Of a stretch of 64,000 nucleotides of DNA, positions 9,953 through 56,137 are shown piece by piece. Position 1 is the first letter of the stretch; each line of letters starts with the position of its first letter. The notes under the pieces are model-generated. The model searched no databases. It worked only from the letters and a program-made list of their open reading frames with translations, and was not told the origin of the DNA. The position numbers and the translations under genes were made by a program. This stretch comes from Sphaerolaimus hirsutus. Its lineage: Eukaryota > Nematoda > Chromadorea > Monhysterida > Sphaerolaimidae. The stretch is from positions 9,800,529 to 9,864,528 of the forward strand of contig OZ038451.1 in the NCBI GenBank assembly GCA_964036195.1, given 5' to 3'.

Positions 9953-10147
9953 CCTGGAAGCAGTCCCAGACCGTGCAAAGTGTAAAGTAATGTGTCAAAC
10001 GCCAATGCCATGTAAAATGGCAATCAAAACTAAAAATATTTTATTACTGAGAATTGCCACTTTACATTACATTTGTAATGACAATTGACAATTTCATGGC
10101 ATTTGACACTTTACTTTACACTTTACAGAGTCTGGGATTGACACCTG
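9953..10147. mobile_element. Family Q element downstream of AASDH
   Basis: The ends are CAGTCCCAGACCGTGCAAAG and CAGAGTCTGGGATTGACAC. The interior has TGTAAAGTAATGTGTCAAA words and complements. It lies about 300 bases past the AASDH stop. It contributes an AATAAA on the minus strand (near 10036), a possible but unproven poly(A) signal. Confidence 0.75.
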
Positions 10148-10452: not shown

Positions 10453-13195
10453 TCAAATAAAATACAACTCCTCCGCCGGCCGCAGTTTCACGCAGTGCAA
10501 CCTGTCGTCGCGACACCCGACCAGCGCGAAGAAACGGCCCCCGTTCTGCACGACGGCCGGTGTCGAGAAAGATTGCGACGGTAACTGGTAAATGGCGGCT
10601 AGCGCGCGGAAATTGAGATCGAACAGGTGCAGCTGCCCGTCGCTGGCGGTTAGAAGCAATGCGTTCAGCTGGAAAAATGTGGCGATGGAAGTTCTCTAGC
10701 TGTCGGTGTGGGAATGATAAATAAATGAAAGATTTCCGGTAGCCCTGTGCCGGTACTCATCCAAACCCGGTACTCATCTAAATCCGGCACTAATCTACCG
10801 TATTTGCTAGAATACTTCCCCCTTGAATACTTCCCCCCCTTGAATACCTCCCCCTCAAGGCATACGATAAATTTTTAAGTCTAATTTGGACAATAATAGC
10901 ATGTTATTGTGTAAATAAAGCATGTTTTGTCGAATGAGTTGATGGAAACATGCTTGAGAATTCTGACGAAATAATAATCCCCCCCCTTGAATAATCCCCC
11001 CCTTTAAAAAGTCTGACGAAATAATAATCCCCCAGGGGGATTATTCAAGCAAATACGACATACCCCCTGGCACACACACATAACAGATGTTTGCCGATTC
11101 AATATTAAAATAATGCAATATTAAAATGATGGAATCGAACCCAAAATCACCTGTTCGACAACGCACGGCGCCCTCGTGAGTGGCGAGTCGGTCAACTTAT
11201 ACTCGGCGACCTTCTCAAATGCGACACTGTCATCAGCATCAGACGTGACCACCAGCAACCGTTCAATTACTCCATTTTGACACGTGATAACTAAGGATTC
11301 TCGAGGTGCATGTGACGTCACTTTGACAGCTTGCGCGAACAGCGGCGCCTCGGCTTTGTATGTGGCTAGCTGCAAATCGCAATGAACCATGGAAATTTTG
11401 TAATGCAGCGTTTACAGGTCCTCGTGTGCTGACGATAAAATTAAGTGGAATGTTCAATAATTCCGGAACAAAGTTCCATATCTGCAAGAAAAAAAGTGAA
11501 GTGTGCTCACCTGTTATATGTACACACATGACAATTTGCAGATAAATTGAGCTTGTCGTTCAAGGTTTATAGACATTTGAAAGCGAATTTCAGTCGTCGG
11601 TTTGGAAAATATTTATGGAACTTTATTTCGGAATTATGAAACTTTTTCAATTATCTTCATATAATTTGACACCGGTTGACGGTTAAACCTTTTTCCCATC
11701 GCTTCCGTGAACAGCGTGCAGGTTCCCATCGACGCAGCAGGCGTAAATCATTCCAGTGTCGAAATTCACAAGAAGCGGGGCGAAAATTGGAGCACCCAAA
11801 TGAACGCGCCACTTTAATGATACAGACAGTCCAGCATCCAAATTCAATCCATGCTGAAACAGACAGTGAAAAGTCTTTGGAATATTCGAATGACGGACTT
11901 TCTCTTAGACAAACAACGAGACAAAAAGATCAGCAATTAACCGTGACCAAATCGAAAGCCTGTACAAATCCAGCCAGGTCGGCGACAAACACATCGAAAA
12001 CATCTGGGGGCAGTCCCGGACCCTGTAAAAGACCCTGTAAAGTGTAAACGACCCTGTAAAATGTCAGGTGTCATGTAAACGTCCCTGTAAAGTGTCAAAT
12101 GTCTGTAATAGACCCTGTAATGAATCATGTGATCCAAATCTAATACTTTGTATCCAAATCATTTGGATACAAAAACATAAGATTTGTATACGATACAATA
12201 AAATTTGGATACACATAGCACTTTACAGGGTCTCTTAAATGACATTTGACACTTTACATTATCTTTTACATGACACTTGACATTTTACGGGTCTTTTACA
12301 CTTTACAGGGTCTTTTACAGGGTCTGGAACTGGCACCAGAACTGGCTCCGCGGCACACAACAGGCTGCCCAAGAGCGGCCCCTTGCAACTGTGTCGACTC
12401 ATGACATTTCCTCTTTTCACAATCTAGCAGATACATGTGTTTGTCATGTGAACATGCGAGCACCAGTGAACCGGTCACAGCCGCCGGGGGACATTTGAAT
12501 GCGTCGGCAGCGCCCGAAAAAGCCCAATGAATACTCCCGTCGTTCATGGATAGGAAGTATACAGTGTTGTTGAAGCAGCCTGCGCGAAAAAGTCAATTCA
12601 TTTCATTTTGGGAGCTCGAAAAAAATATACACCGTATTTTGTCGAAATACCCCCAGGGGGTTATTTTCCAGAGTGGAAATTTTGAGGAGATATTTCGAGG
12701 GTGGTTATTAGATTTCCCCCAATTTATACATCATGTACATTGTATACATGATGTACTTCATTCCAGACGGGGAGTATTTCCCATTGTGTAGTTTTTGTAT
12801 AACACAAGGGGTGTTATTTTTTCCTGAAATCCCTCAGACCTGGGGATATTTCGATGGGGGTATTTCAAGGGGGTACTTCGTGGAAATTCGGTATATAAAG
12901 AAAAATAAAGAAAAATTAGCTGAGGCCACAGGATATACCTACCTGTCTAGCATCAACTCCCAAACGGCATCTATTCACCATTCCACCAAACCACAATAAC
13001 CAAACCACTTACCAAACACAGCAAACTGTCCATCTCGAGTAACCTCAGCGGTGGCCTCCACACGATCGGGCAACTGCCGCCGCCACAGCGAGCAGCCGTC
13101 GCCGATGCGAATCCTCACGACCGTACCGGAGTGCGAGCCGATCAGCACCGTGTTGGTGCCCGAGGGCACCTTGGCGCCGGCGTCCACGCACTTGT
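10453..13195 (-). CDS. AASDH: AASDH C-terminal PQQ/beta-propeller exons
   Basis: Six exons (13195-13013 to 10668-10453) encode repeated blades with the signature GSHSG, GCFNNTVYFL, CSHDKHMYLLD, VFVADLAGFVQAFD, CCVDGNLHAVHG and GCRDDRLHCVKL. This matches the PQQ-repeat C-terminus special to AASDH among acyl-CoA synthetases. The stop TGA is at 10453-10455. The intron between exons 12579-12337 and 12003-11942 is entirely a family Q element. Confidence 0.9.
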
Positions 13196-16100
13196 CTGCG
13201 GTTGGGAAATACAGTGCCCTCAGTGGAACAAGGGGGCAGTCCTAGACAGTGTATAATTCACTGTCAAATGTACTGTAAAAGACACTGTAAAATGTCAAAT
13301 CGCAGTGTCAAAAGTCGTGTAAAATGCCCATTTCAAGACTTTTGACACTGCGTGCCATTTGAAATTTGACAGGGTCTTTTACATCTGACATATGACAGAG
13401 TCTTCTACATTTTACAGGGTCTTTTACATGACATTTAACATTTTACAGAGCCTTTTACAAGGTTTGGGACTGGCTCCATGCCCAAACATTGAATACAGGA
13501 TTGGAAAAATAGCTGCCATCCCTACACTTACCCATAGGGTAGGACCAATTGGCAGTGAAAGCGTAGCGATAAGAGAAGTCCAAGCCTGATCGCAAAGCGA
13601 GATCTTGGGAGAACCCATTTTCGAGTGAAATGGCAGCAGACCCTGAATGATATAAGTATCAAAATAGATCATTTCCAGAAAAAAATTTGCAAACAAGTCA
13701 GAAAAAAACAATCTACCATCATCTTTCAACAGGGCATTGAGCGCATGAGCGCACTCTTTCAGACGCACGCCCAGGCACTGTATTAATACAACGGCCACTG
13801 AATTTGACGCCGTATATTGACGCTCTATAAGAGATGCTACACGCAAAGCGGCGTGGGAGTCGACACCCAAAGCAGTCAAGGTCGTGTCACTGGTGACGGT
13901 CACACTTTCAATGTCGTCCGCTAGAACCTGTGCGATATCGAGCAACTTGATATTCATTCGCGCGACTGTCGGAAACAAAAAACAACAACAACAACACGAT
14001 ACCTTGGAAACAAACTGCAGCAGATCGTCCACGCTGAGGGAGGTGCCCGTGTGCACAGCGGACCCCTTGTCAACGCAATGAGACAACAGCAAGTTTTTGT
14101 CTATTTTACCTGGACACAAATTGACAAGTGATTTGATCACCACCAACGATGTAGAAAGAAAGCAGATACAATAACTCGGTCAATTTAAGAAACTATGCAA
14201 AAGCGCATTTGTGCAAAAACTGTATTTCAATTAATTTCGCCGCGATTCGCAGTTGCCACCGACCGTTAGAATTCAGCGGAATTTGATCAACTACAACAAA
14301 TGCGTCCGGAAAAGTATAACGCGGCAGCGGCCAACTCTGCTGCACCGTTTTGCGCAGCTGAGCGCTCCCACCGGTGGTTTGGCAAAAACAATAGATCTGG
14401 GGGCGGTCCCAGACCCTGCGAAAGACCCTGTAAAATGTAAAAGAGCCTGTAAAATGTATCATGTAAAAGACCCTGTACAATGTACTGTAAATGTAAATGT
14501 AAATGTAAAAGACATGTAAAGTGTCAGGTGTATACAAACCTTATTCTATGGTATACAAATCTTATTCTATAGTATCCAAATCTTATGTTTGTATACACAG
14601 AGTCTATAGTATAAACAGAGTCTTTTACATGACATTTTATATTGTACAGGGTCTTTTAAACACCTTCCCGGACAAGTTCACCACCCATTTTTTTATTTCA
14701 CTTCGAATGCAATATCTCCGTCCATGGGGGTGTTGTAAAGCTGAAACTTTGTATATATAAAGTTGTAAGACCCCTCTACTCACCAACAATGGGGGAGGTG
14801 CGGCGACTCACTACAGGGTGGGTCACCCTATATTCAACAATTTTTTTGGCGTTTTTGGTGTCCCAAACAAGTTCACCACCCACTTGATTGGCTACACTAC
14901 GAGAGCCATATCTCCAGCTGTGATGGCGGTATAAAGCTGAAATTTGGGGGATGTCTTGCCAACAACCCCCTTCACGATCCACCAGTGGGGCGGCTGCCAA
15001 CGACCCACTAAAGCATGGGTCACTGCATATAAAGTTAACCATTTTCTAAAAACAGCCCAAGTGTCCCAAAACAAGTTCATTACCCAACTGCATTAAAAAA
15101 TGTTGCAACAACATACCTAATAAAAGAATGAATCGGGTTGGAACACTATTTCAGCCAAAACAATTTTTTTTCAGTAGGGCATCCACCCTGTCCCATAAAC
15201 AGCCGACTGAAAATTTCACTTTAAACCAATTTTTTGTATCACACTTAAAAAGTTGGTTTACAAAGTTCACTAGGGGAGGGTCTAAGGTTTAAAGTTATGT
15301 AAACAACATAACCTCTAAAATGCTTCCATAAGGAAATTTACTCGGGGTGAATTCTATGATGTCAAAATGATGTCATTTCAGGAAGAAAATTTGACAAAAC
15401 TTTCACTTTTTCATTCACCCCAAATAAATTTCCTTATGGAAGCATTTTAGAGGTTATGTTGTTTACATAACTTTGAACCTTAGACTCTCCCCTAGTGAAC
15501 TTTGTAAATCAACTTTTTAAGTGTGATACAAAAAATTGGTTTAAAGTGAAATTTTCAATCTGCTGTTTATGGGACAGGGTGGGTGCACTAGGGTTGGGGA
15601 ACCGAACCGAACCGAACCGAACCGAGAACCGAGCACAATTTTGGAACCGAGAACCGAGAACCGGAACCGAAAAAAATACCCGAACCGGAACCAAGAACCG
15701 GCACTTAGACCCGGAACCGAACTAAAGAACCGAAAGAACCGAAATTTTATAAAATAATCGGCCGCCTCCCCCCTTCCTGGGTGAGAGTAGGGATATGCAT
15801 GGAAATGTAACTTCCGGCATCAATTTTAGGGTCATTTGTCAAAAAAATTTGCACGCAAGCGCGCAATTCTTGCTTCATGCAATTGGTGATTTCATCTCAC
15901 CAGTTGCGCAGCCTCATGTGTTCACAATCCCACCTAAAATGTGTATATGTATGTCAAATACATATACAGCAGTCTGTGGGGGTCTGTGCCAGTGCGCATG
16001 TAAACCTGGTGCGCATGTAGGCCCATTTTCATACATTTTTCCATCACACTGATATTTTAGAAGTACATTGGTACGCGTACTGGTAATTCTCTCAAAAAAT

Positions 16101-19100
16101 ACAGCAAGTGGGGTGCCAGTCTCTCTATATGTACATGTATAAACATACATATCAGAGATTTTTGGCACCAATGCCAATGGCGCCAGCGCCATGATGCCAT
16201 TTCGCCACCATGTAGGTAAACTTTTAGGGCGGGTGGCTGAATCCCCCTCCCATACAGCAGGCTCAGTAAACAAACATACACCATGCTCATAAATCCTGGA
16301 TATGTACCTGGCCCCCGAAGCAAGGGGTCTACATGCACACTGGGTTTACATGCACACCAAGTTTTGGCCGTCTGGGGCACCTACGCCAACGCCAATTGCG
16401 CCATGGCGTGGTGCCTATGAATGGCGCGAGCGCCATGACACCATTCCGCCACTACAAGGGCAAAATTGTAGGGGGAGGTTGTTTTATGTTGTTTTTCCTT
16501 TGTTCCGCATATTATTCTCTTATTCCCGATTTTTTCATTACCCGATACCCGACTTTTTCATTACCCGGAACCGAAATCTTTGACAATATGGAACCGAAAG
16601 AACCGAACCGGAACCGAACTTAAGAACCGAACCGAGAACCGGAACCGAAAATTTTGAGGAACCGAGAACCGAACCGAAATTTTTTAGAACCGAGAACCGG
16701 AACCGAAAATTTTGAAATTCCCAACCCTAGGGTGCACTACTGAAAAAATTGTAATGAGCAGAACTAGGGTTCATATCTGATTCAATTTTATATCAGGTAT
16801 GTTCTCACAACATTTTTTTTTAATGCATTTGGGTGGCGAACTCGTTTGGGACACTTGGGTTGTTCTTAAAAAAATTATCAAATTTATATGCAGTGACCCA
16901 TGCTTTAGTGAGTCGTCGGCAGCCGCCCCACTGGTGTATTGTGAGGGGGTTGTTGGCAAGACATCCCCCAAATTTCAGCTTTCTACCGCCCTCACAGCTG
17001 GAGATATAGCCTTCAAAGTGTAGCTAATCAAGTGGGTGGTGAACTTGCTTGGGACACCAAAAACGCCACAAAATTTTTTTGCATATAGGGCGACCCACCC
17101 TGTAGTGAGTCGCCACACTACCCCCCATTGTTGGGGAGTAAGGGGGTCTTACAACTTAATATATAAACTGCCGGTCAATATAAACTGGCTTTCACTAAAA
17201 AAAATTTCAAAAGTTTGTAGTTCGATCCAGGATTGGGGTTTTGGCCAAGGTGTTTGTATTTTTGGATAGCCCTAACATTTGTCTACTCGCACCCCCGGGG
17301 GGACCCCTGTGGCTGCACCCCCGCAGCCACAGGGGCGCCTCCCGTAAAAAAATTTCATATTTGAGTTGGTCAATATAATCAAGCTTTTTGCGGCATTTTT
17401 TTTGCTCGCTTTACACAGAATCTGTAAAGCGAGCGAAGCTATCCGATTTGGATACTTCAGGTGTAGAAATTCACGCTCTTTCTTTTGAGCATGGATTCAA
17501 GCCCTGTATCCCAAAAAAGTCGCGATTTTTTTTAGTTTATCGCTGATTTAAAAAAATCAGTCTATCGTTACTGAATCTACAGGGTGGGGGTAAAAATTTT
17601 ACTGTGGGGGTGTGAAAACTTAACGATGGGGGTTGAAAATTTGACATAGTATACAGAAAATTATGGCGCACATTTTGAATAAATCACCCCCACACATCTG
17701 TACACACGGAAAAAACTTTCATAAAATAAAATTTGAAATTTAAAATAACTTTTTCTCGTCCAGGGGCGGAGGAGGACAAGAAAACGTTAGTTTAAAGTTC
17801 AAATTTTATCTTACGAAAGTTTTTTCTCTGTGTACAGATGTGTGGGGGTGATTGATTCAAAATGTGCGCCATAATTTTCTGTATACTATGTCAAATTTTC
17901 AACCCCCATCATTAAGTTTTCACACCCCCACAGTTAAATCTTTACCCCCACCCTGTAGATTCAGTAACGATAGACTGATTTTTTTTAAATCAGCGATAAC
18001 TTTAAAAAGTCGCGATTTTTGTTGGATACAGGGCTTGAATCCACGCTCAAAAGAAAGAGCGTGAATTTCTACACCTTTTAGTATCCAAATCGGATAGCTT
18101 TGCTCGCTTTACACATTCCGTGTAAAGCGAGCAAAAAAAATGCCGCTAAAAGCTTGATTATATTGACCAACTCAAAAATGAAAAAATTTTACGGGAGGCG
18201 CCCCTGTGGCTGCTGGGGTGCCGCCACAGGGGTCCCCCCGGGGGTGCGAGTAGACAAATGTTAGGGCTATCCAAAAATACAAACACTTTGGCCAGACTCC
18301 CTTCCTGGATCGAACTACAAACTTTTGAAAAAAATTTGAGCGAAAGCCAGTTTATATTGACCGGCAGTTTACAAAGTTTCAGCCTTATAACACCACCATG
18401 GACAGAGATATTGCATTCGAAGTGAAATAAAAAAATGGGTGGTGAACTTGTCCGGGAAGGTGTTTACATGACACAGGACATTTTACAGGCAATTTTACAT
18501 TTTACAAGGTGTTTTTCAGAATCTGGGACTGGCACCAGCTGCGATTGCTCGTTGAACATGGCAGCTACCGGTACACCGACAATAGACGATGTAGCCTGTG
18601 CGCGATGACACATTTGCCCATGGGTGTCGCCCAGATTTTCGATGATATTTACACGATTATAAATACCTTCTCAATGGACGCTAAATCGATCCTCCGACCA
18701 AATCGCTTAACTTGTGTATCGGTTCGTCCGACGAAAATAACTCGACCATCGGTGGTGATCTCGACCTGTGGAGAATAACTTATAACGAGCCGCTTCTGAG
18801 TTGGGCCCATCCCTCACAAGTACGATGTCGGACAAATTTTTCACGTGTAAAAAAATGGCCGATCAGCTTGAATTAGATTTGACAATAATTTTTGTATTTA
18901 TATTTTACTTTTGACAAAACTATTTGACATTTAAACGATATAACAGCGCTAGACCGGCCTCACAATATATTTACGACATAAAGCTGTGTTTTTTCGGTGC
19001 CGTTGTGCGATTTGGAGGTGAGTGGCGTAGCCGATTTAGCGTTGTATGCAGCTATGTTGTGTGTTCTAAGGTTTGTGGCGCTTACACGGACATGTCTAGA

Positions 19101-22100
19101 GGTGGTCCGCGCGGCTGGGGCGGCAGAAACGCCCCTGGGAATCGTGGACAACGTGGCAATGGCAGCTACAACAACAATATGAACCGTGGCGGTGGTCGAG
19201 TTCAAAAGCGGCCGCACTCGAGTCCAAATGGTCAACATGTGGCAGCCAAAAGGTTCAACAATAAGGTTGGTGTTTGGATTTACGTTTGTGTTTCGTTGGT
19301 AAGTTCGGCGTTTGCTTTAAGCTAGGTTTTTTTTAAGTATTGGGTTTAAGTATTTTACTGAGTTGCTACTGATGATGACCCAGCTCAGTGCTAGTATAGC
19401 AAAATGGGTCGAAACTAGCTTTTCCTATTTTTCAAATACCAATGTTAGCGAAAGAACGAACCATGTCTCCAGTGGGCCGCAGTCCGCCAATTATTTTGCC
19501 GTCGCTGCAGCACTGTTCCAAATGTGCGCCGTGCATAAACTCGTCGTCGACATAACAGACCCTGGTCTCACCGCCGCAGAGAAGTTCGCCGCGCGACCCG
19601 GCCCCAGCCGATGCGACGGGCACTATGCTGTAAAAAGGGTTGTGTGTAGGGATCCAAACTCGATTTTTTTCAAAGTCGAGTTGGAGTCACAGCCGACAAG
19701 ATTTTTCCGGTCGAGTCGGCGAGTCAGTGGAAATCGAATCTCGAGTCAAAATGCAAAAAAAACTCGAGTTTCGAGTCATGGCCACATTTTTCGATCAAGT
19801 CGAGTCGAATCTTTCGGCACACATTTTTCGAGTCACGAGTTGAGTCAACTCATATTCGAGCCCCAGTGGTGTGGTGCAAGTAAATCTTTCAAATGAACAT
19901 GAAATTATTTGTTCACATTTAAATAAAAACATTCACAGCAAAACATTCACAGCTTCAAATTATTGAAAACTTGGGAGGAAATTTTTTAAGATAAATTACT
20001 GTGCCAAAACACAGTTCAACGTGACCCGCAGACATTTGGTTCAATTTACAGAAAATCCTACCAACCTGCCGTCGTCACGGCGTAGCGCAAACTCAGTTCC
20101 CAGTAGCGGGTCACCGATGTCAACTGGATCCACTCTGAAAAGAAATATACTTCGATTCTGAACAGATAAAATCACTACAGGCCATCGCTTTGCCACAAGC
20201 GGCCTCAGAAACAAACAAAAGTCTTATAGAGAACGTTGGTTCTGAAAAATCGAGTGAGGCGCACTAAGGGTTGGGAACCATCGCCCCCAGGGGTGTCCTA
20301 TATTTTGACCCTCAGGGTGTCGGATATGTTGTTAAGCGCGCGCCCCATTGAAGACCCCTGACTTTCCCTCATCTATCAAACTGTTGGTGCCGTGCCGTGA
20401 CGAGGCATAATTTGTAGTAAACTGGTATGGCGAAGAAATTAAATAGGTATATGGAGCCTCGCGGAAACTTCAGCGCTTGGCTCTATTACAAATTGTGAAC
20501 TGCCAAGTCGTTCAACACCCGCAACGTTGTAAATTCACCCAAATATAAACAAACATCGTGTCCACATCTACAGTTCTCAAACTGGCCCAACACGAGACCT
20601 CAGTAACCCCATAAATATTGCTCAATTTGCACCAATTTGCACCCGCACGGCCAGCCAAACGCACGGCCTTGAGTAGGTGCTCCGAGGGGAACGGCTCCCC
20701 TCCCAGCACCAAGTGCCGCGCCGTGGGAAACACGGTGGACAAGATGAAGTCCAGTGGCATGCAGCTGAATTGTGACGGCGTCATCTGGAAGGTGTATGTT
20801 CCTTGAATTGAAAACACTCCTTGAAGTAACCGTGCCTTCTAAGTGAGTAACTGTGAGCTGGGAAGAACTTCACTCGAAATACCCCCCCCCACTTCGGAAC
20901 GAGTGTATTGAAAGCATGAAATGAAAGATGAGAAAATAATGAGTTTTGGGTGCCGATTTGTACCCCAGCTATTAGCTATACATAGCTATACAACGGGCTG
21001 TGCAACTATTATCACATTTCGATTTGAAATATTGACATGTTATTGTTCGATTACCTTTTTTCTGGATTTACAAATAAATCACGAACATTGACGAAATGCT
21101 GATCAAATAATGACCCTCCCCCCGGCGAAAATACCATAAACAAGTCTGAATGAGCTGGTGGAAAAATAAACCCATGGGGGGTAAGGTATTTCAAGCAAAT
21201 ACGGTATCACAATAAACCACTCAAATCGTCAACCCAAAAGAAACACACCATCAACACATTAGGCGCGGCGTCGCAGGCAACCAATTTCGGCCACAATCTC
21301 GCAACTTCAAAACCGGTCGCCTGTTTCGCGGTGAGCACCACCAAACGGCAGCCGGCACTCAGCGCGCAGAACGTGGACACGACGCTGGGGTCGAAAGTCA
21401 GCGGGGACAGGGACACTATTGTGTCCGCGGAGGTGAGACTCAGTCGCGTGCTGTGGTGAGAGAGAGTTGGCAACATTGGCGGCCTACACACTAGTTGACA
21501 CACGTGTGTCAACTGGTTTGTGTCAACTCAGATTTCGGCTTCACGTGTCGCAGAGCGATCTTCCAATGCACTTGTCGTAATATCAATTTTTCTACATTGC
21601 CGCATGTGCATTGGAAGATCGCTCTGGGACACGTGAAGCCGAAATCTGAGTTGACAGACCAGTTGACACACATGTATCCACTAGTGTGCAACATTAAATG
21701 CCTATCAATGCACCTAATCGCAAAGAATACCTCTTAAATGATCTCACGTTCATAAAACCGACCACAAATCTACTATGTTCGGAACTATGGACGAGTGCGG
21801 CACGCGGACAATTTTCGGCACGCCCGTCGTGCCGGACGTCTGCATCACATAGGCCAGCGGGCCGGGCGAACATCGAAGCTCAGACTGCGCGAGTGAAATA
21901 CCGCAATAACTACCCTTGAATTAACTTGAATTAACCCCGCATACCCCCAGGTGTGAGCGACCTGAGGACAAATTAATCCTCACGAAATACCGCCCCCCCC
22001 GTCTTGAAAAAGGTATTAATGTGCATGGTGTCTTAATTGCTGCCAATTAGTGTCGCAGCTACACACAAGACTCGATAGTTTGTGTAGTGATCGACGTTGA

Positions 22101-23972
22101 TATGGCGAAATATATCCACTCGTTTGGACAGATTTATAACCCGATTCTTCACTTCACGAAAGTTTCTGGTGAAATAATAACCCCCTCGAATTAACCCCCT
22201 CAGAATTTACAGGAAAAATAATAAACCCCTTGCCCTGAGGGTATTTCGACTAAATATTTACGCTAGGTTGATAAAGAAAGAAGTGCTAAACAGCACCACA
22301 CTAGTTCAGTCTCGCCAACAGTAGAGCACACGCAGGCGACTCCCTGCTCGGAGCGGTAGATGTGCGCCGCCACAACTCGGCTGCGGCCCAATGGAATCTG
22401 GGGGCACTCCCAGACCCTGTCAAATGTCAAGCAAAGTGTCAACTGTTTCTCATTTTCCAGGGAATTTTACACTTTTTTACATGACATTTGACATTTCACA
22501 GGTTCCGGGAGTGCCCACCAGGTCGCAACTACCATGCAGCACAGGGAAATGCCTATCCAGCGCCGGCGACGCGTCAGAAAGTCTGAAACTGCCGCCGGCC
22601 GCCGCGCGGCGGCTCAATTCACCCGGGCGGATTGACACAACTATGGACACAAACGGTCGCAACCGCTGCAGTAGGTTAAGTGTGTGAGGGTCGGCAGGGC
22701 CGCCGGGGTGCGCGGGCAGGTGGAACCAATGTCCTTCGCACTTGAGCACGGCTACTTGGCAGATTATCGCACCTGGGATTGGAGAAACGGCATAGGTGGA
22801 TAAGTTTGTTTGGTTGTGAACAAGGGTAATTCTCAGCTGTTATGAAGTTTTTGCGGAATTTGAAAAAAGTATTTGAAAAAATGCCTACAAAATATAATTT
22901 TGAAAAAGCAAGAGGTTTTTTATTTAAGAGTCGTTTAAAGACTTTTTTTTCATCCTAATAGCTATCCACCCGGAAAAGCGATCTACAATCTCTATGAATC
23001 TATAATCTACAGCGAATCTTCCAAACAATCAAATCCAATTTTCTTTTAAAAACCACAAAAAAAACAGTAAAATAACCCGCAATCAAAGCCGCACTACCCC
23101 CATCCGGATCGAGAGCCACAACCACCGGGGAACACCTCAGACATCCAAAAGACGGCTGAAAAGTGAGCAGTTCAGCCAACTGGCCGGCGGATTTGTGCAG
23201 TCTGTGCAGGGTGCACTGGCCCAGTTGAGCGGAATCGGGGTCGGACCAGGGGCCAATTCCTCAGAAAGTGAAGTGAAATGAGAAGTGAAGAGTGAAGTGA
23301 AGTGAAAAGTGAAGTGAAAAGTGAAGTGAAAAGTGAAGTGAAAAGTGAAGTGAAAAGTGAAGTGAAGAGTAAAGTGAAGAGTAAAGTGAAAAGTGAAGTG
23401 AAAAGTGAAGTAGAAAGTGAAGTGAAAAGTGAAGTGAAAAGTGAAGTGAGATGGGAAGTAGAAAGTGAAGTGAAAAGTGAAAGATATTAATAGTAAAATG
23501 AATTAAAATTGAAAATAACAATAAAACGTAAAGGATGAATTCTGACTTAGAAAGCATTGTTCTCGATGACGGTAGCGATGATTTAGTAGGTTTTTCGCTC
23601 GGGGCAGAACTTGGAATTCAGAATGTTACCCCATTCAAAAAACAATTTCACTTCTACTTTTCACTTCACTTTTCACTTCTACTTTTCACTTCACTTTTTA
23701 GATCACGTCGCTGTTCACTTCCACTTTTCACATCACTTTTCACTTCATTTTTTACTTCACTTCACTTCACTTCTCATTTCACTTCACATTTTGCGGAATC
23801 GCCACCAGAGCAGGCCGCGGTCGCGCTGCCCGTCACTGGGCGGGCACACGGTGCCCAGTAAAGTTTTAGCCAGCATTTCCGCTGCGTATGGGTTCGGGTC
23901 GATTGAAGACTTTATTCGCCGGTGATAAGTAGAAAAGCTAGTTGAATTGATGTGCATAAGCTTTTCAGTCAT
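10453..23972 (-). CDS. AASDH: AASDH homologue: acyl-CoA synthetase family member 4, 20 exons, complete
   Basis: Minus-strand exons in order: 23972-23806, 23246-23077, 22772-22519, 22397-22302, 21884-21763, 21450-21249, 20784-20555, 20134-20066, 19627-19462, 18765-18667, 18595-18536, 14396-14264, 14109-13717, 13642-13532, 13195-13013, 12579-12337, 12003-11942, 11853-11689, 11369-11151, 10668-10453. The sum is 3360 nt, about 1119 aa; the family is near 1100 aa. All joins keep frame. Seen: the AMP-binding motif TSGTTG, SPLTFDPSVV, YGVTEVS, the carrier motif GVDS, and PQQ-propeller blades ending VGCRDDRLHCV. Known family role: adenylates a carboxylic substrate and loads it on a phosphopantetheine arm; the human protein is linked to lysine/2-aminoadipate metabolism, though its substrate is debated. 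The first exon start (MTEKL) and the exon 4 donor are the least certain points. Three introns are exactly family Q elements. Confidence 0.93.
10796..11062. mobile_element. Family R element in an AASDH intron
   Basis: The left end is ACCGTATTTGCTAGAATAC and the right end is CAAGCAAATACG. The arms repeat CCCCTTGAATA words. It fills most of the intron between the last two AASDH exons. Confidence 0.65.
12004..12336 (-). mobile_element. Family Q element that is exactly an AASDH intron
   Basis: Read on the minus strand, the exon ends GTTCTG and the element begins GTGCCAGTTCCAGACCCTG. It closes ...GGACTGCCCCCAG and the next exon starts ATGTTTTC. Splicing at the element ends restores the phase-1 codon GAT and a continuous propeller reading frame. 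The arms are TGTAAAATGTCA words in both orientations, with a short GGATACAAA palindrome in the middle. Confidence 0.88.
12631..12894. mobile_element. Family R element in an AASDH intron
   Basis: The ends are ACCGTATTTTGTCGAAATAC and a degenerate GAAATTCGGT. The arms have CCCCCAGGGGGTTATT and GGGGTATTTC words. Confidence 0.7.
13230..13477. mobile_element. Decayed family Q element inside a larger AASDH intron
   Basis: The ends are GGGGGCAGTCCTAGACAG and GGTTTGGGACTGGCTCC. Both would-be splice dinucleotides are mutated here: donor GA, acceptor TG. The actual intron uses flanking sites GTAAGTG (13531) and CCGCAG (13196), which lie outside the element. Confidence 0.75.
13532..14109 (-). CDS. AASDH: AASDH phosphopantetheine carrier exons
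   Basis: The exons 14109-13717 and 13642-13532 encode the acyl-carrier region. The attachment serine is in TALGVDSHAALR, at about residue 674. An in-frame TGT/TTG microsatellite at 13983-14003 encodes five consecutive cysteines just before the helix that leads to the serine. Reading through it keeps frame, whereas excising the GTATCG...ACAG segment (37 nt) would not. The second exon joins in phase 1 and runs into NWSYPMDKCVDAG, the usual start of the propeller region. Confidence 0.85.
14264..23972 (-). CDS. AASDH: AASDH adenylation (AMP-binding) domain exons
   Basis: The first twelve exons give residues 1 to about 590. The P-loop-like TSGTTG followed by PKIVRV is at about residues 245-257 (exon 21884-21763). 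SPLTFDP is near 288. GGEPFPSE is near 366 and YGVTEVS near 395. The GRTDTQVKRFGRR hinge region is near 505 (exon 18765-18667). The domain ends in PLNSNGKID at the exon 14396-14264 to 14109 junction, as in adenylate-forming enzymes whose A10 lysine precedes the carrier. These residues support a catalytically competent adenylation domain. The substrate cannot be inferred from sequence alone. Confidence 0.92.
15589..16729. mobile_element. Family B element (GGAACC words) in W
   Basis: The ends are TAGGGTTGGGGAACCGAACC and TTCCCAACCCTA. The 8-bp duplication GGGTGCAC is perfect (15581-15588, 16730-16737). Both arms iterate GAACCG/CCGAAC words. The middle (about 15775-16490) resembles a decayed L-type segment with GCGCCATGG words and TATATGTAC stretches. 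Confidence 0.88.
17166..18369. mobile_element. Family V 1.2-kb palindrome in W
   Basis: The ends are AACTGCCGGTCAATATAAAC and its complement, flanked by TA. The two halves mirror each other about position 17765, including the GCTCGCTTTACA, GACTTTTTTGGGATACAGGGC-type and CACCCCCACA blocks. It interrupts the right arm of W, whose left arm preserves the empty site. Confidence 0.88.
19091..19268 (+). CDS. Possible RGG-rich first exon, antisense inside an AASDH intron
   Basis: The plus-strand frame begins MSRGGPRGWGGRNAPGNRG and continues with Asn/Gly/Arg-rich sequence to KRFNNK, followed by a GT donor (AATAAG|GTTGGT). The composition resembles N-termini of nuclear RNA-binding proteins such as the NONO/hrp65 group. 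This is composition, not homology. It sits between AASDH exons at 19462 and 18765 on the opposite strand. No following exon is visible, so it could be a nested gene start, a retrocopy fragment or chance. Confidence 0.35.
19647..19865. mobile_element. Family F element (GAGTC words)
   Basis: The ends are TAGGGATCCAAACTCG and a degenerate CATATTCGAGCCCCA. The target duplication is GTTGTGTG (19639-19646) and GTGGTGTG (19866-19873), 7 of 8. The arms repeat GAGTCGAGTC-like words. It lies only 19 bases upstream of the AASDH exon acceptor at 19627. Confidence 0.8.
20870..21206. mobile_element. Family R element in an AASDH intron
   Basis: The left part has CGAAATACCCCCCCCC and the right end is TTTCAAGCAAATACGGTA. 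The left terminus is degraded. Confidence 0.6.
21481..21690. mobile_element. Family O element (CACACTAGTTGACA ends)
   Basis: The ends are GGCCTACACACTAGTTGACA and TGTATCCACTAGTGTG. Long arms include CAGATTTCGGCTTCACGTGT and its complement. Copies at 25711 and 40896 match. It is 31 bases from the acceptor of the AASDH exon 21450-21249. Confidence 0.8.
21895..22262. mobile_element. Degenerate family R element in an AASDH intron
   Basis: CCCTTGAATTAACC-type and AATAACCCCCTCG words run in both orientations, ending GACTAAATATTTACG. The termini are decayed. Confidence 0.5.
22398..22518 (-). mobile_element. Short family Q element that is exactly an AASDH intron
   Basis: On the minus strand the exon ends GCGACCTG, the element runs GTGGGCACTCCCGGAACCTG to GGGTCTGGGAGTGCCCCCAG, and the next exon begins ATTCCATTGG. 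The join is phase 0 and gives LHGSCDL-IPLGRSR. At 121 bases it is the shortest Q intron, with the interior reduced to one pair of TGTCAAATG words. Confidence 0.88.
23247..23805 (-). mobile_element. Family AA element occupying the first AASDH intron (GT-TG ends)
   Basis: On minus, exon 1 ends CTGCTCTG, then GTGGCGATTCCGC opens the element. It closes GGAATTGGCCCCTG before GTCCGACCCC. Joining there gives W-SDPDSAQLGQ in frame, which fits the AASDH N-terminal layout. The interior is a tandem of GTGAAGTGAAAA words (23260-23490 and complement). The 3' dinucleotide is TG rather than AG. Alternative AG sites nearby break the frame or create a stop. Confidence 0.7.
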
Positions 23973-23988
23973 TACTGCAGTGCAAACT

Positions 23989-24172
23989 GCCAGTCTCTAG
24001 CCCTTTAAAGTGTGAGGTGAGGTGTAAAATGTCATGACAAATGTAATACAAGTTTGTCCATTGTCATGCAGTGTCAATTGCCACGCAAAATGCAGTAATA
24101 AAATCTTTTTTTTTGTTTTGATTGACATTTTGACACTTAAATTTACAGGGCTCGGGACTGCCGCAACATACC
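23989..24172. mobile_element. Family Q element upstream of AASDH
   Basis: The ends are GCCAGTCTCTAGCCC and GGGCTCGGGACTGC, with GTCATGACAAATG-type interior words. It lies just upstream of the proposed AASDH start codon (23972), so it may be in the 5' untranslated region or promoter. Confidence 0.6.
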
Positions 24173-25930: not shown

Positions 25931-26064
25931 TATATATACATTTAATGGGGTGGCAAAAGTACCTTCAGGTGAGAGCAGCAAACCAAAATATAAATACCTA
26001 GGTGTGTACACACATAAATACAAGCTTTTTTCATAGGTTGAATGCAATGATGAGTGGACTGGGA

Positions 26065-27154: not shown

Positions 27155-27332
27155 ACTGGTGCCAGTCCCAGACCCTGTGAAATGTCAAGTGTCATGCAAA
27201 GCGTCAAAAGTCAGGTAAAATCCCCGGTAAAATTTCAAACGTACGTTTGCCATTTTACCGGGCATTTTACATGACTTTTGACACTTTGCATAACATTTTA
27301 CAGGGCATTTTACAGGGTCTGGAACTGCACCT
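27155..27332. mobile_element. Family Q element, intergenic
   Basis: The ends are CTGGTGCCAGTCCCAGACC and GGGTCTGGAACTGCACC. It has the usual TGTCAAGTGTCATG words and the TTTACCGGGCATTTTACATG block also seen in the activin receptor Q intron. Confidence 0.82.
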
Positions 27333-29493: not shown

Positions 29494-32400
29494 CCCCCAT
29501 CGACAACCCCCAAGACCATCAAGCAACCCACCGGCGGGTGCCGTCTCCCACTGTGCTGCCCAGCGCAGTGGCGCACCAGTCTGCTGTGCTCGTCGCTGGT
29601 GGCGCAGCTGCTGGACGTGTTGTCGTCGGCGTCGCTGCCGTGGCCGGCCAGGCGCTTGAGCACCGTCTGCAGGCGCTCGTAGGCGCTGCTCGGGGTCAGG
29701 CGCGCCTCCGACTCGTGGTCCCACATCTCGGACATGGTGCAGACTAGGGCGTCAGCCTCCTGCGGTACGGGAGGGGTTGTTGAAACGTATTTACGTTTAC
29801 TCGAGAAATTAAATACGTATACTCAAAAAATACGTATACTCGAGTACAGAGTAAATATTTACGTTTACGTATCGTCCGATTGAAAAGTACCTGTGCTCAC
29901 TTTACGTATATCTTTTAAAGGTACGTGGGTACAGAAAACGTATTTCAGATTTTCAAGGCATAGAAAGGATAAAAGAGCAAAAATGGTATATAAACACATA
30001 CATAGACAAAACTAGTTGACCATTGGCAAAAAGCACATGAACTAGTGAAAAAGTTTAAAAAATACTCACTTGTACGTTTCTGGGAAAATTTTTCGTTTAC
30101 TCATGTTTATACTTAAGTATAAGTTAAAAACTTTAGATTACGTTTTCTGTACTCAGGGGGTGGGTAAAAAATAAATACTTCACGTTTACGTATACTTTAT
30201 GCGTAAAACCCTGGGAAACTTCGGTGACGAATGCAAAGAAAGTGGTTATTACAAAACAAATGTACTCACTTTATCGAGTTTCCAGTGAGGTTCGATGGCG
30301 GGTCGTCGTTTCTGGTCGCAAACGCACTGTTTCATCTCGGTGAGCGAAGGCTGCAGACCCACGTCGTCCTGGACATTGAGAAAAAGATGACATGTGAATC
30401 CGGCAGCTAAAATGTCGGATATAATGAACCAGTTGGAAAAAGTTGGGATGTAGGGGAAAAAATTTTTTCGGAAATTTTGAAATATTTGGTTTGGGTTAAC
30501 CGCAACCAAAACGTTTGGTACTTTTTTTGCGATTTCAAGAACGCAATTTCACCTACACTTGGTAGCCGTTTTTATTGGTTTTGAAACATTTTAGGGTGTT
30601 AAAAACAATGACAATGTGTACGTGAAATTGCGCACTTGCGTGAGAGAAAAAAAACAGCAAAAATTCTGGCTGTGGGTTTTTTCCCAAAAGAACAGTATCG
30701 ATGCTTGCGTTTAAAAAAACACATTAACAATCCGGCCATCCTTACCGGGGCCGTCGAAAAAAGCGCTCTCCCACCCCTACCCCAAAAAAAACATTCAATT
30801 TTTTCAATCTCCCACCTGAAACGGCAATTTGTACTCATCAGGAGACTGGTCGCCAATGCGCGCTCTATTCACCAACTCCCACAGGACCAGGCCGGCGGCG
30901 TAGGCGTCAATTTGGCGGAACGCAAACCCCGAAAACTCGGTGTAGCATTCGAGCACCTCGGGCGCCATGTACCGCCGGGTACCCGTCTGCGTGCGGGTTT
31001 TATTCGTTTGTTGAGTTGACATTTGTTGTGAAGGGGAGTTGTGAAGGTTTTTGAGTTGACTTTTGGAAGTGTCATGTCCGATGTTTTTCGAAATATTTGA
31101 ATTTTAATTGACATTTTTATAGCTAAGAAAGAATGCAAACATTTGAGTCGATTTTTTGCTTAAGGAAAGGCTCAGAGTACAGGATTTGACAAAAGCCGCG
31201 ACAGTTTTTGTGACAGCAGTCAACGAATAAATGGCGTCAATAAAACGAGATAGTTTGAATTCGAACGTTTTATATATTTTTAAACGTTTTTAACAATTTA
31301 ACGACTTGAATGGTTTTTCTGAACTATTTTAGCTCACCAAAAAAGTATCTCATCAACATAAACAGCCTAACTTTATCAAAATTTTGAATGCTTGCCTAAC
31401 GTTCAATTCTTTCCAAAAAAATTTGGACACATTGCCGAGTAAACGAACCTGTGTTCTGATGTCGCCGGGCATCTGCCCATGATCACATTTGATGGCCAGG
31501 CCGAAATCGGCTATCTTGGCGCGTAGCTGGCTATCCAAAAGCACGTTGCGCGATTTGAAATCTCTGTAACGTAAAACACGTAGGGTTCAAACGTGATCCC
31601 GATACCGAATCCCGAAAAATTTCGGAATTGTGAATTCCCGATCCCGAAACCTCAATCGCGAACCCGAAATTTAAGCCGAATTAATCCCAATTGCGATCCG
31701 GAATTCTTACCATAATCCCGATCCAGAAAAAAATGTGGGACATTTGTCAACTGACTTTTTTCACTGAGAAATGTAACGGAAACCCCCTGTGTACATTTTA
31801 TGAGACCCCACTGTAGTCCCGTGTGTTTTTAGACCTATTTGTAAAAACGACGATCCCGATCCAAACGCCATCCAAACTCCAGATCCCGATCCCGAAAAAA
31901 CGCCAATCCCGATACCGAAAACTAAAAAAACAATCCCTTCCCGATCCCGAAAAGTCAATCCCGTCTGAACCGGAAAACACGACGTAGCAATCAGGTACAA
32001 GATAGTATACAAATCCGCGTCCGACCTGTGAACTATAGTAGGTTTGAGTACGCGGCCAGTTCCCGACTCGATTTCAACGTCGTGCAAAAACGCCAGGCCG
32101 CACAGAAAGTCCGCGCCGATGCGAGCGGCGAGGTACAGCGTCACGACTTGATCCTGCGATGGATGCATTGTATTTGCATTTTATATGTTTATCGACACAA
32201 AATAGGTGTGATAATGGCCCTACACCAAGGACGTATCCAGGGGGAGGGCGGGGGGGGGGGGGGCTGCACCCCCCCCCTTTCCCGGGCGAGACCGGAAAAA
32301 TACCGGGAAAATGCAATTTTCGGTACCAAATCTCAAGGTGCCGAGTAAAAATTTTCATTCGTCGCGCACACAGAAATATCAGCAGATCGGTCCCCATACA

Positions 32401-35400
32401 CTCAAATCCATGAAATTTCACTCAATCGTGTGCCCGTCGCTGTATATGTAGTGTATTTCCATACATATACAGTGCTTTCTGGCGCTAGCGCCAGCGCCAA
32501 TGTCGCCATGGCGTGACGCCTACGAATGGCGCCAGCGCCATGGCGCCATCACCTCCCTTTGTAGGCAACATTTTAGGGGGGGGCTGAGCCCCCCCCCCCG
32601 TTCGCGGGGCTCCGTAAACAAACAGCCCCCCCCCCGCTCAAAAATCCTGGATACGTCCCTGCCCTACACACACTAGTTTTCACCGGGACCGATGTGAAAA
32701 CTGAAATGGCGACATGACGACATCCAGCCTACTCTTTTTGTACGCTATGTGTTTTAGTTTTAAAATTTTTTAAGTTTAACTTTCATTAATTTTAATTCCA
32801 ATTAAAATTAAATAAAATCATTCAACCGTGTTCATTAATCTGCATTTGAAAAAAATTCAGTTTTCCCACAAAGTCACGGTGAAAACTAGTGTGTGTAGGC
32901 ACAATGGCCACACACACACTAGTTGACATCGACACCAAATGTCAACTGGTTCCTATCCCAATTCCAAGCTTGGGAACATCGTTCGTTGGCTCGTCAGCAA
33001 GCTTTCAATTGGGGTCGGAACCAGTTGACATTTGTTGTCGATGTTAACAAGTGTGTGTGGGCCCAATCACTTGAATTGAAACCCTGTATCTAGGTTCAAT
33101 TGGTAAGATGTAAACAACACCAGTTGTCCAAAACATTTTTTTCGCCACGTGTTTTAATTATGCTAATATTCATGACGCATTTCCGAATGACTCACACACA
33201 CAACGATCGATTAAAAATCCAAACTCAATCCACATGAATCATTCGAAAATCCTTAATTCTCATTTACCCAGCCCCGCAGCTCAGTAGTCTTAGATTCGTA
33301 TCACTAGCCCATGCGAAAATCCCGTCGCAACCCGCGGCCCGCGGCGTGCTCAATCAATTTCCACCCATATAAGCGCGTTCACATCAAACCAGCTGTTGTT
33401 AAAAGTTGTTAAAAGTACCCAACTTTTACCAAAGTATACGTATGCGTAAGTATTTTGTTTTACTCACCCCCGAGTACAGAAAGCGTAAAGTAATTTTTTA
33501 CTTTTTCAAAGTAAATGAGAGTGAAATACTTTTTTTCCAGAAAGCGTAACTGCGAGTATTTTTTCTCAGGAACACGTAAAAGCAAATAAAATTACTTTTT
33601 TTTCTCTGGAAAATGTAGAGGGAGCATTATGAATGTTAACCCTGGACAACAATAAGGTGCTTTCTTTCTATAAAAAAGAAATCTTAATGAAAATCAGGGG
33701 CCTTGAATGGCAAAGCAAAAATACTCTTTCTTCACTCGGAAAATATACTTTACTGTACGCGAGCACTCTCAAAAAGTAAGCGTACAGGCGAGTACATCTA
33801 CTGTTTTCAAAGTATGCGCATAAGTATTTACTCGGTACTCGAGTATGCGTACTTTTTGAGTAAAAGTAAATACGCATTTACAACTGTGCAATCCAGCGGC
33901 GCGTGCCGCGCGACCGATCCGCTCGCAAAAAGCTACAAACTCAGGGCTGCTTTGTGCCGCGAAGCCGCCCCCCCCCCCCCCGATTCAAGCCACGCGAAGT
34001 GGGTGGTCCGCAAAACTCGCGCAGAGCGATGGCAAAGGCGCAGCGGAAATGGCGCCGCGCCGTTTGATGTGATCGTGACATGTGATTTGTCATGACAAAT
34101 GTGATGACGAATTTGCCATCGTCATGCAGTGTCAGGCAACGTGGCAAATTGTCATGCGAACCTCACTAATAAAATCTTTTCTTCTTTGTTTTGATTGACA
34201 TTTTGCATGACATTTGACTTGACTCGGGGCTACCCCCAGAGAGTACGGAGTCCCAACGGCAAACACAATCGGTGATTTGCCAACACTGGCGCCACAAAGT
34301 CCAAATGGCGCACTATATAGTGCCCACAAAAGGCTTCACCGCCAGCCGCCATTAATTACCATCGACACTGTCTGCACAATTCTCAGCCACGCGCCACTGT
34401 AATTCCATTCGCGCGAACACGCCGTCTTTCTTATGCGGCTATTTAGTGTCCGGGGGTCCTTCACGATGAATACCAAATCAGCGCATTTATGCATCTCGCA
34501 CTACGAACTAGATTGACCAAAGATGGATTGATTACGGCACTTTGAATGGACGGTAAAATATTTAAGTGACTTGACCGGCTGTAAATGAGTGGGTGGTACA
34601 CGTCACCAGGCGCGTGCCTTTTTAATTGCTTCGTTTGAGAGAGTTTTTTTACAAATCTTAGCGGTAATTGACAGAAAATTGTAAATATCACAGCTGAGAG
34701 TATCACCTGGTATTTCACAAGCGGGGGTATTCCTGATTTTGACTGTCCGGGGGTTTGATAGATAGCAACAGTGGGTTTTGTAGATTTGGACTATATAAAC
34801 TAGTGATTTTGAAGGTGAAAAACTATAAAATGGTGTGAAAATCAGCGATTTTGAGCTAAAATTGAAGCAAAATTTCTCAAAAAGCGCTCCAGATAGCTAG
34901 TAGAAGAATAGCTGAAAATAGGCAACAGGAACACGTATCGGATATGAATTAAAATCTACAAAAAATTATAGACAGATAGTTGAGGATTTAGGGGATAAAC
35001 GCCAAAAATTTGCCTCAGGGATGGATAGATATCTAGGCAACTTGGGGGGGGGGTCAACCACCCCCTTTCCTACTCCAGCACCTTATTGACATAAACTACA
35101 GCACTGAGTTTTCAGAGCTTTCTTTAAGGAAAAGTACCATAATCAATCTTAAAAAACACATTTCCTATCCAAGCAGCGCATACTGAACAAGCAAACGCAA
35201 GCAGCACACAAAAGTGACGCCCCGAGACTGAGATCCCAGTACTTTCACCACAGTCGATTCACGCCTTTCAAACAACCCCATTTAAAACACAAACCAAAAA
35301 CAATACCCACTTTGAGGTAATCGGTGAGCGCGCCGTTGTGCATGTAGTCGGTGACGAGCCAGTACTGCTCCTGGCCGAGCTCGGGCGACCCGCGCACGTC

Positions 35401-38400
35401 GGATTCTATGTACGTCACGATGTTCGCGTGCTCGCGCATGCCCTGCGAACGCGGTTGAGTCATTTGGGTTTAGCGAGTTTGAGTTAAGATTAGGGGTGGC
35501 CAAAAAAGGTTGTTTTTTTTCGACGACCTGAGGGGTTTTTTAAAAAACAGTTCCGATGGTACGGGTTTTTTTAACATAAAACATTGTTTTTAAACCTTTG
35601 AAAAAGCCCGGCTATCTCTAGTTAGGATGATCGAGTGAGTAAGCGAGAACTGCACACACAAGTAGGGTTCAAACGATATATCGTATCGAATATCGGATAT
35701 TGACCATTTTTAATATCAAATATTGACCATTTTTTCGATATATCGAACCTGTACTGTGTCCCTAAGTAAAGTTTTTATTTTCAGTTTGAAATATTTGTGA
35801 TTGATATGATTTACTTATAGTATTTTATCTGATGAGTAAAAGTACAATATTTATAATGTTATTTTTGTTGGAGTGCTAAATTTGAAGCCTGAAAATGCTG
35901 ATATGCTATTTTTGCAACATGCATTGAGCAATTCAGTTATAACTTATAAGTATGAACTGTAATATCTACCAATCGTTTTTTTGCCTGATACACTTTGATT
36001 CATCATGTTTTTCTTCCATTTTCTACTTTTGACTGATGTAAACCTTTTTAAAATCACTTGTACCATTCACATTTCAGTAAAGCGATGATTAACCATGTGT
36101 GCAAACTGCAACCACATGAAGATACAATATGCCGCTTGCAGTTTGCCTTGCTATACCAAAAGCAAATTGCAATATCGAATATCGAAAATATCGAAATATC
36201 GAATATCGACCATTTTTTATATCTAATATCGATATTGAGGTTCCATATCGTATCGATATCGAATATCGAGTTTCAGAAAAAAATATCGAATATCGATATC
36301 GAAAAGTCATATCGTTAGAACCCTACACACAAGTTGACATCGCAAATTCATGTCAATTGAATGTCAACTAAATAAAACAAAAACAAATCTAAACCATCAA
36401 ACAGAAACAATGAAAATAAAGTGTCACGATGGGAAATCAACTATGCTCTGTCACATAGGAAAGTTGGAATCACATAATCAAAAAACTTGTTGAATTTAGT
36501 TGACACGAATTTTGATGTCAACTAGTGTGCGGGAGGAACAACCGACCATGACACCGTAGATATCCTTCTCTTGGACCCACGAATCGACGTCGATAGATGG
36601 AAAAACCTTTACGGCCACCAGGCGATCGCTTATACGACCGCGGTAAACCTGTGTAAATATGTTGGCATAAGTGCTTTTAGAGCGTGCATGAACTGTTTCC
36701 CTCCCATTTGGCCTAGGACAACTCGGAAAAAACCTACATTACATGTGTATTATACACCCGCCACTCCCCCCCTTCGAAAAACAACAACAAACCGTGGAGC
36801 TTTTTGCTGTGAACAGATTCAATAGGCTTCTTGCCAAACGGCTTTTTTTGCACCAAGAAATGTGTACGGAAACATCCAGTGACCCATCTTATGCCACTTC
36901 TCAGACATCTTAGTGTTTTAGACCTTTTTGTGAAAATTCAGGGAAACCCTAAATACCAGAACCTTGTCCAAAATCCCGATCACGAAAAAAAATGTCAATC
37001 TCGATTCCGATCCCGTGACCTCAACGTCAATCCCAAAAAATCTACAAAAAAAACAATCCCGATCCCGTGACCCGAAGCTTCCCTATCCCGTCAGGTCAAT
37101 CGGTTTGAACCCGGCAGTATCAATTTCGAAAACTTTAAACCCCACTACGGTTCACAACTTCAAACTTGACAGCAATTAGCAACATGACAAACCTGGCCGT
37201 ATCTACCCTTAGCTACCACAGCGTCCAGTTTGAGCCCTTTGAGCGCATTCGGCGTGCCGTCGATGCGATTCGCGGATGATAGTAGTATCGATTCGGTGGT
37301 GCCCATCTGCAGAGAGACAAGATTTGGTGTGGCATGAAGAATTGCAACGGTGATTTATGGCTAGCAAGGGTTGCTTTTTTAGCGGGTTTAGTAGATTTTG
37401 AACCTCTAACTGCGGGGTGCTCAATGAATAGTGTGTCCTACGGATAGGAAAGATTGTTGAAATCGATATTTTGAGTCATTGGGGCAACAAAAATGGCTGT
37501 TTATATAAAAGTTTGACTGTTACATAACCAAACTTGCAATCAATAGCTGTTCAGTTCGTATGTTACAATTGATTGATTCCGAATGGGGGTGCAGCTAACC
37601 CTCACAAATCGGGCAGCTATCTATCCCGGAGGCCCGCTCAGCTGGCTTCCGAAAGAAATTAAAATCGTGAAAACAGCTAACCTGAGGAACGCCATCCAGC
37701 CTATGCTTTCGTTCATAGTTAAGCATTTGATACTTGCGGTAAATGAAATACGCCGCCACAACAATCACCGCCAGCAAAATGATAGGAATTAGAATCGTTA
37801 GAACGTCCCAAAGCGTCGCCGCCTTGTCGTATGGAGGAAAGCTGGTCGTCTCGGCACCTGTGTGAAACATTCGGACGTGTTCCGGTCACTTAAATAAATC
37901 ACTGGTGAATCGCCGTTTAGCATTTCCACGAAGGCATACAAAAGACACCATCCTCCCCACCCCACGCATGACAGGGTCTTTTACATGACATTTGACACTT
38001 TGCAGGGTCTTTTTCAGGGTCTGGAACTGCCCATGGGGGTCTTTCAAGTCGGGGGGGGTGAATTCAAAGGGGACAAAGATTCTTCAGCCCAATTTTCCGA
38101 ACCGACAACTGAATTTTTTTTAAATGCTTATAACTCTCGAATGACATGAGTATGTATCGGAAAATTGGCATTCACGGACACTTAACTAATGAGTATACTT
38201 CACTAGCTTTTCTTGAAGATATGAAACTTTATTCCGGAAAAATGGAACTTTTTCACGTTTTCAATTTGTCGGCACAAGTCGCAGTGTAAACGCTGCTTAA
38301 CAGTACCAGTACAGTACCAACAGTGAAATCTACAACCCAAACCAACTGGGCCCCAACACATCCACATCGGCCTTGCTCAGCGCCAAGCGCACGTCGGCGT

Positions 38401-39729: not shown

Positions 39730-39903
39730 AGCGCAATGCTTCTTTGTGTCCGGCGAGATTCTCGCGGCTCGCCGTCGGTCGGGGAGATGCAACAACAGTT
39801 CGGCCACACTTGACACGTTTTCTTTTTTGGAGGGGAAGTAGCAGTTGTTCGTAATATCCGGAAAATGGCATGACGTTGTCTTCAGCGCCTAGCGTTGGAT
39901 TAT

Positions 39904-45833: not shown

Positions 45834-46028
45834 GATGGCACTCCCGCACCCTGTAAAGTGTAAAGTTTTAACTGAAAAGTGTCAAATGTCATGTAAAATG
45901 TCAATTAATACAAAATATTTTATTACTGAACTTTTGATACTTTGTATGATAATTGATAAATTTGTATGACATTTGAAATGAGATTGAACACTTGGCTTCA
46001 CACTTTACAGGCCGTGGGACTGGCACCT
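45834..46028. mobile_element. Family Q element, intergenic
   Basis: The ends are GATGGCACTCCCGCACCCTG and CCGTGGGACTGGCACC. A second partial Q (GGTGCCAATCCCAGACAC) abuts it from 46028 to about 46130. Confidence 0.75.
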
Positions 46029-46137
46029 GGTGCCAATCCCAGACACTATAAAGTGTAAAGTAAATATCAAATGTCGCGTAAAATGTCATGCAATGTGCCA
46101 ATTATCAGTTGTGTCTTGATTTTAGATGCATCTAACA

Positions 46138-53436: not shown

Positions 53437-56137
<2,701 letters not shown>

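Follow-up and report, generated by a model that had tools for sequence, protein, structure and literature searches.

The window, by which we mean the whole 64-kb stretch of DNA that was analysed, contains a gene for AASDH (ACSF4, the beta-alanine-activating enzyme), an activin receptor type II-like gene, and 14 listed copies or fragments of a short inverted-repeat element, designated here as family Q (Table 1). Splice sites of the AASDH model were picked by eye from the reading frame and GT/AG. Its 1035-residue product matched two Pfam families: Beta-prop_ACSF4, at E 3.5e-69 and across the whole profile (positions 1-329 of 329), and AMP-binding, at E 6.7e-28. The donor sequence GTAAGT is present in only 2 of the 16 non-Q introns of this by-eye model; judging from these sites, AASDH donors may be loose beyond the GT, and such looseness may ease intron gain. 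The joined pieces of the second gene gave activin receptor IIB as the best PDB match (E 4.4e-43). Its ectodomain match is weak (E 0.059 with the exon upstream of intron I and 0.031 without it), and that exon is open and in frame, with no homology support. A gene for ribosomal protein uS12 (RPS23) is located at 53438-56140, and no strong Q end was found within it.

Table 1 Genes and family Q copies in the 64-kb window. Flanks are the 3-mers immediately outside the terminal inverted repeats (left/right), read on one strand
Feature	Positions	Strand	Description	Flanks
Copy A	9957..10144	-	Q element ~0.3 kb 3' of the AASDH stop	CAG/CAG
AASDH (ACSF4, beta-alanine-activating enzyme)	10453..23260	-	20 exons and 19 introns in the model, 1035 aa, start codon not located	
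Copy B	12004..12336	-	Exact intron 16 of AASDH, 333 nt, phase 1; element 12007-12336 plus right-hand CAG 12004-12006	CTG/CAG
Copy C	13233..13477	-	Degenerate Q inside AASDH intron 14 (13531-13196), away from the splice sites	CAT/CTT
Copy D	14397..18535	-	Exact intron 10 of AASDH, 4139 nt, phase 0; Q split by a nested insertion	CTG/CAG
Copy E	22398..22518	-	Exact intron 2 of AASDH, 121 nt, phase 0	CTG/CAG
Copy F	23987..24164	-	Degenerate Q element	GTT/TTT
Copy G	27159..27330	-	Q element, no gene recognised nearby; right arm nearest to left arm of copy I	CAG/CAG
Activin receptor type II-like gene	30800..39740	-	Partial model	
Weak Q-like end	34170..34215	+	Ends in CCCCCAG; below matrix threshold	
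Copy H	37970..38031	-	Single Q end between the ectodomain and transmembrane exons, inside an activin receptor intron	
Copy I	39195..39438	-	Exact intron of the activin type II receptor gene, 244 nt, phase 2	CAG/CAG
Copy J	45835..46026	-	Q element	CAG/CAG
Copy K	46030..46110	+	Single Q end adjoining copy J, triplet common to both	
Copy M	59783..59822	+	Single degenerate Q end	
Copy N	59895..60221	+	Symmetrical Q element, inverted repeats GTGGCAATCCC/GGGATTGCCAC	CAG/CAG

The body of intron B is a single, nearly palindromic MITE of family Q. Read on the minus strand from 12336 to 12004, the intron runs TCTG^GTGCCAGTTCC...GGGACTGCCCCCAG^ATG, or more fully TCTG^GTGCCAGTTCCAGACCC...GGGTCCGGGACTGCCCCCAG^ATG (carets mark the exon borders), with an exact GT...AG. 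The preliminary description of this locus had placed the GT donor and the CAG acceptor at the ends of the element and had claimed that its exact removal restores the AASDH frame, and both points hold. With element B spliced out exactly, the propeller profile PF13570 (Beta-prop_ACSF4) was matched at 234.8 bits over positions 3-329 of 329, compared with 122 bits over positions 3-144 when reading through into the element, where the entering frame runs to a stop soon after (ORF 12296-12592). An element with GTG at its start and CAG just after its end will automatically show GT..AG on one strand, and it might be argued that the elements stay unspliced in dead genes and that the fit is due to chance; the 20 modelled AASDH exons are free of stops and give a full-length Pfam match, and the propeller is complete only with the element removed, which leaves this explanation scarcely credible.

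Copies D and E in AASDH, and copy I in the unrelated activin receptor gene, had likewise been described as introns formed by the same family, and each was found to fit exactly and to leave an open frame after removal. In all four cases the intron opens with base 1 of the element and closes with the final G of the adjacent CAG, which supports the introner behaviour proposed earlier. Similarity reaches both splice sites in introns of different genes (B, D and E in AASDH; I in the activin receptor). Copy I is internally deleted, with a good left arm, most of the right arm lost, and ~8 bp of the right end in common with the other copies. Terminal inverted repeats (TIRs) as good as those of AASDH introns 2, 10 and 16 were obtained in 0 of 300 shuffles for each of these three, and p was at least 0.063 for the remaining 16 of the 19 introns. 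Copies B (z -17.85) and E (z -8.02) form hairpins; an ordinary intron folded as a control (n=1) gave +1.00, and copy I forms no hairpin (z +0.94). As judged by eye, the insertion nested in copy D is ~3.8 kb long (~14660-18460) and ends in AACACCTTCCCGG/CCGGGAAGGTGTT, with what looks like a TA duplication; its position within the interrupted element indicates that Q was there first. PDB alignments of the AMP-binding region are too loose at junction D to tell an ancestral CTG from one brought in by the element. Parts of the ~3.8-kb insertion recur near 0.7, 7.6-8.4 and 32.5 kb.

It is also conceivable that Q invaded old introns and that later deletions trimmed the flanks until intron and element ends coincided. 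Copy C and fragment H do lie within longer introns, which counts against the introner reading, but exact trimming would have been needed at both ends in four cases out of four, to base 1 of the TIR on one side and to the last base of the CAG on the other, and we consider such a history quite improbable. The look of an ordinary insertion into an existing intron is given by AASDH intron 4, in which a different palindromic MITE is set back from both splice sites, by ~74 nt on the donor side and 20 nt on the acceptor side, in contrast to the exact fit of the four Q introns. This MITE belongs to a second palindromic MITE-like family, of the type CACACTAGTTGACACACGTGTGTCAACTGG, which is represented at 21451-21762 (in AASDH intron 4), 25703-25933 and 40898-41098, with copies about 75-84% alike.

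Family Q is larger than first described. Ten of its copies are two-ended (A, B, C, D, E, F, G, I, J and N) and three have one end (H, K and M), with a weak end near 34.21 kb; the nine two-ended copies that lack a nested insertion are 118-330 bp long, and four of the 14 listed copies and fragments are exact introns (B, D, E and I). A weight matrix of Q ends was built from 21 ends found by eye, and the same 21 ends together with that of M score at least 15.2 (22 ends). Three mononucleotide shuffles (one strand counted, doubled) gave 4, 2 and 0 matches above 8.5. Matches above 15 at 444, 1779 and 4582 were judged not to be Q, two of them because they lie within TCCCGA repeats. No gene was recognised around F, G, J, K, M and N; unrecognised genes could nevertheless surround some of the ten copies and fragments that are not exact introns, and copy A could be an intron of the 3' UTR. 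Copies J and K (45835-46110) lie end to end on one CAG/CTG triplet, as if one had inserted at the edge of the other. Copy N directly adjoins an open minus-strand frame (the two together span 59895-60519) that matched no Pfam family above cut-off, and on the minus strand it has a GT donor, with CTG where the acceptor CAG would be.

The TIRs of Q have the form GTGCCAGTCCCAGACCCTGTAAA. The flanking 3-mers are identical in five of the ten two-ended copies and are then always CAG (CTG on the other strand), and 200,000 draws of random 3-mers from the window yielded at most four identical pairs, five being reached in none. The motif CWG (CAG or CTG) accounts for 2.6% of the 3-mers in the window and adjoins 16 of the 22 scanned ends, a count in which one end of E and one of G needed a one-base shift in register and the triplet of J and K is common to both (the TIR register was set by eye, which makes these flank statistics slightly favourable); the exceptions are C and F, each at its two ends, and the single-ended H and M. 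Identical CWG flanks in combination with TIRs point to Q being a DNA transposon with TIRs and a 3-bp duplication of a CWG target. This duplication fits the family as a whole, identical flanks being absent in B, C, D, E and F (5/10). Since TIRs and CWG flanks also occur on copies outside the exact introns, Q is a DNA element and not merely a family of introns. The same copies (A, G, J and N), with TIRs and identical CWG flanks, argue against the copying back of intron RNAs by reverse splicing, as proposed for fungal introners, with the TIRs incidental; four exact sense introns, all ending in GCCCCCAG, would be in keeping with such a process, which we nonetheless regard as very improbable. Q is short and non-coding, carries TIRs, is present in many copies and has identical CWG flanks in half of the two-ended ones, as is typical of a MITE. 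Judged from its sequence, family Q is very probably a non-autonomous cut-and-paste MITE acting as an introner, and its four exact introns are presumably spliced and presumably represent gains.

The type of transposon is suggested by the NuwaI group, which is related to PIF/Harbinger and is described in the available text of PMC4482050 as having a 3-bp CWG duplication and TIRs of 12-61 bp, usually starting with GGG, in 16 animal genomes. Q resembles NuwaI/PHIS in its TIRs and in the 3-bp 5'-CWG-3' duplication that fits the family as a whole, and its TIR length falls within the NuwaI range. In Q, a GGG start is confined to the right ends of B, C, D, E and I, to the single end H and to the weak end near 34.21 kb; most of the other ends start with GTG, and the GTG at the left ends of the four intron copies, as opposed to the usual GGG of NuwaI, counts against the link. 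The same source describes NuwaI only from animals and its autonomous candidates as mostly having a DDE and a Myb/SANT frame; the text available does not mention intron formation. We infer that a NuwaI/PHIS transposase, a relative of PIF/Harbinger, moves Q. No transposase (DDE, Myb/SANT) was found with Pfam in 30 of the 269 stop-to-stop frames of at least 70 aa in the window, and none of those 30 frames, ten of which are near A, F, G and J, matched any family above cut-off. One sub-threshold FANCI_HD2 match was noted at 6033-6398.

A preference for CTG^AT had been proposed from the rebuilt exon junctions, and this junction is indeed present in three of the four introns. The target is better described as the duplicated CWG triplet: AT follows B, D, E and J but not A, G, I and N, and CTG^AT was therefore not adopted as a separate motif. 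The apparent preference is mostly a consequence of the CWG target.

In a FastTree analysis of 21 arms, all arms of B, C, D, E, G, H and I cluster together (support 0.929), and those of A, F, J, K and N fall outside. This clustering indicates that all four exact introns derive from one subgroup; they are accompanied by a pyrimidine-rich right end, which may have been inherited or selected. In all five two-ended copies within AASDH or the activin receptor gene (B, C, D, E and I) the right end is GCCCC, and its counterpart GGGGC is absent from A, F, G, J and N at all ten ends. The weak end near 34.21 kb shares the CCCCCAG ending. Among the arms, the one closest to the left arm of I comes from G, a copy that has no GCCCC-type end. 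The four introns have the same sense relative to transcription, as had been claimed; the element is nearly palindromic, so its orientation is read from the terminal bases only.

The CWG target would explain how the splice sites arise, because the element starts with GT and a right-hand CAG can act as acceptor. An element landing in a sense CAG of an exon would give CAG^GTG...CAG^, in which the donor GT would be the first bases of Q, the acceptor AG would lie in the duplicated CAG to the right of Q, and splicing would restore the mRNA as it was before insertion. Copy I, with CAG on both sides, fits this scheme, in which a splice site is recruited from the target duplication. In B, D and E the sequence is CTG^GTG...CCCCCAG^AT, with the triplet CTG on the left and CAG on the right, and this counts against the introner reading: insertion into a sense CTG alone would provide no AG, so the duplication is imperfect exactly where it matters. 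Three routes to these copies can be envisaged. The target may have been CTG, with the right duplicate changed to CAG under selection for an acceptor; the element may have brought a CAG flank along; or the CTG may be part of the element. The CTG/CAG mismatch occurs in three of the four exact introns and is absent from the remaining four two-ended copies with CWG on both sides (A, G, J and N), and this confinement to exact introns leans towards selection, in small numbers. On the last of the three routes, CTG...CAG would belong to the element ends in the intron copies, no target duplication would have been made, and 3 nt would have been added to the mRNA. The arrangement CTG^...CAG^ is common to B, D and E and extends their inverted repeat, and omission of the CTG codon at junction B shifts the ACSF4 score by only +0.9 bits (235.7 vs 234.8), so that the sequence fits an ancestral and an element-borne CTG equally well; G and I, in the same subgroup, have CAG/CAG, a direct and not an inverted repeat, which makes an element-borne CTG rather unlikely. 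Returning to target-derived splice sites, we tentatively suggest that a CWG-targeting MITE of PIF/Harbinger type might be a ready-made intron maker, in that CAG suits the exon end before a donor and also supplies the acceptor AG. Roughly half of the sense insertions would then work as introns without any mutation, and the CTG/CAG copies would carry either a selected AG or a carried-along CAG.

Earlier work on the non-canonical introns of tunicates is reportedly on Fritillaria. For tunicates, an animal lineage, introner transposons are among the intron sources discussed in the available text of PMC13326754, and the introns concerned are non-canonical, in contrast to the GT/AG introns of Q. The introner elements of the dinoflagellate Amoebophrya have inverted repeats predicted to form hairpins and direct repeats of 3-5 nt over the exon/intron borders, and are mostly among non-canonical introns according to the available text of PMC7789003, whereas the Q introns are GT-AG. 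The 2022 introner survey of Gozashti et al. (PMC9860276), as far as its text is available, includes families with TIRs and target duplications that take splice sites from either side. Q is like those introners in forming introns that are similar up to both splice sites, in its TIRs and in its short duplications. In some of the surveyed families one splice site is borne by the element and the other comes from the duplication, and mRNA length is usually unchanged. The available text describes no CWG duplication and its main text lacks the word 'Harbinger', while Q has imperfect CTG/CAG flanks.

Introners as such are established, and the literature searched contained no introner derived from PIF/Harbinger or NuwaI and none of the Q sequence strings; the 2025 papers PMC12130899 and PMC12166617 (cited in the available text of PMC12768974) lie outside that literature, and Q or its host may be in print there. 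Viral contigs searched with CATGACATTTGACACTTT gave no stretches. With AGTCCCAGACCCTGTAAA, two matches were returned from viral contigs, in identical stretches of ~460 bases that are rich in Gly and Pro codons and have no further Q feature, and these were put down to chance. Contigs of prokaryote genomes searched with ATGACATTTGACACTTTRCA gave none. Rfam at the gathering threshold and a tRNA search with bacterial settings returned no hits.

Intron gain is rarely seen in progress, and in the available text of PMC9860276 introners are reported from no more than two groups of animals, in a survey where 835 of the 3,325 genomes come from animals and land plants. Four exact introns in 64 kb, with duplication-bearing copies nearby, would offer a direct test of how target choice sets up splice sites. 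If the CTG/CAG copies carry an old CAG flank, splicing would be independent of the target. Family Q would also allow a test of whether a single type of transposon repeatedly turns intron maker.
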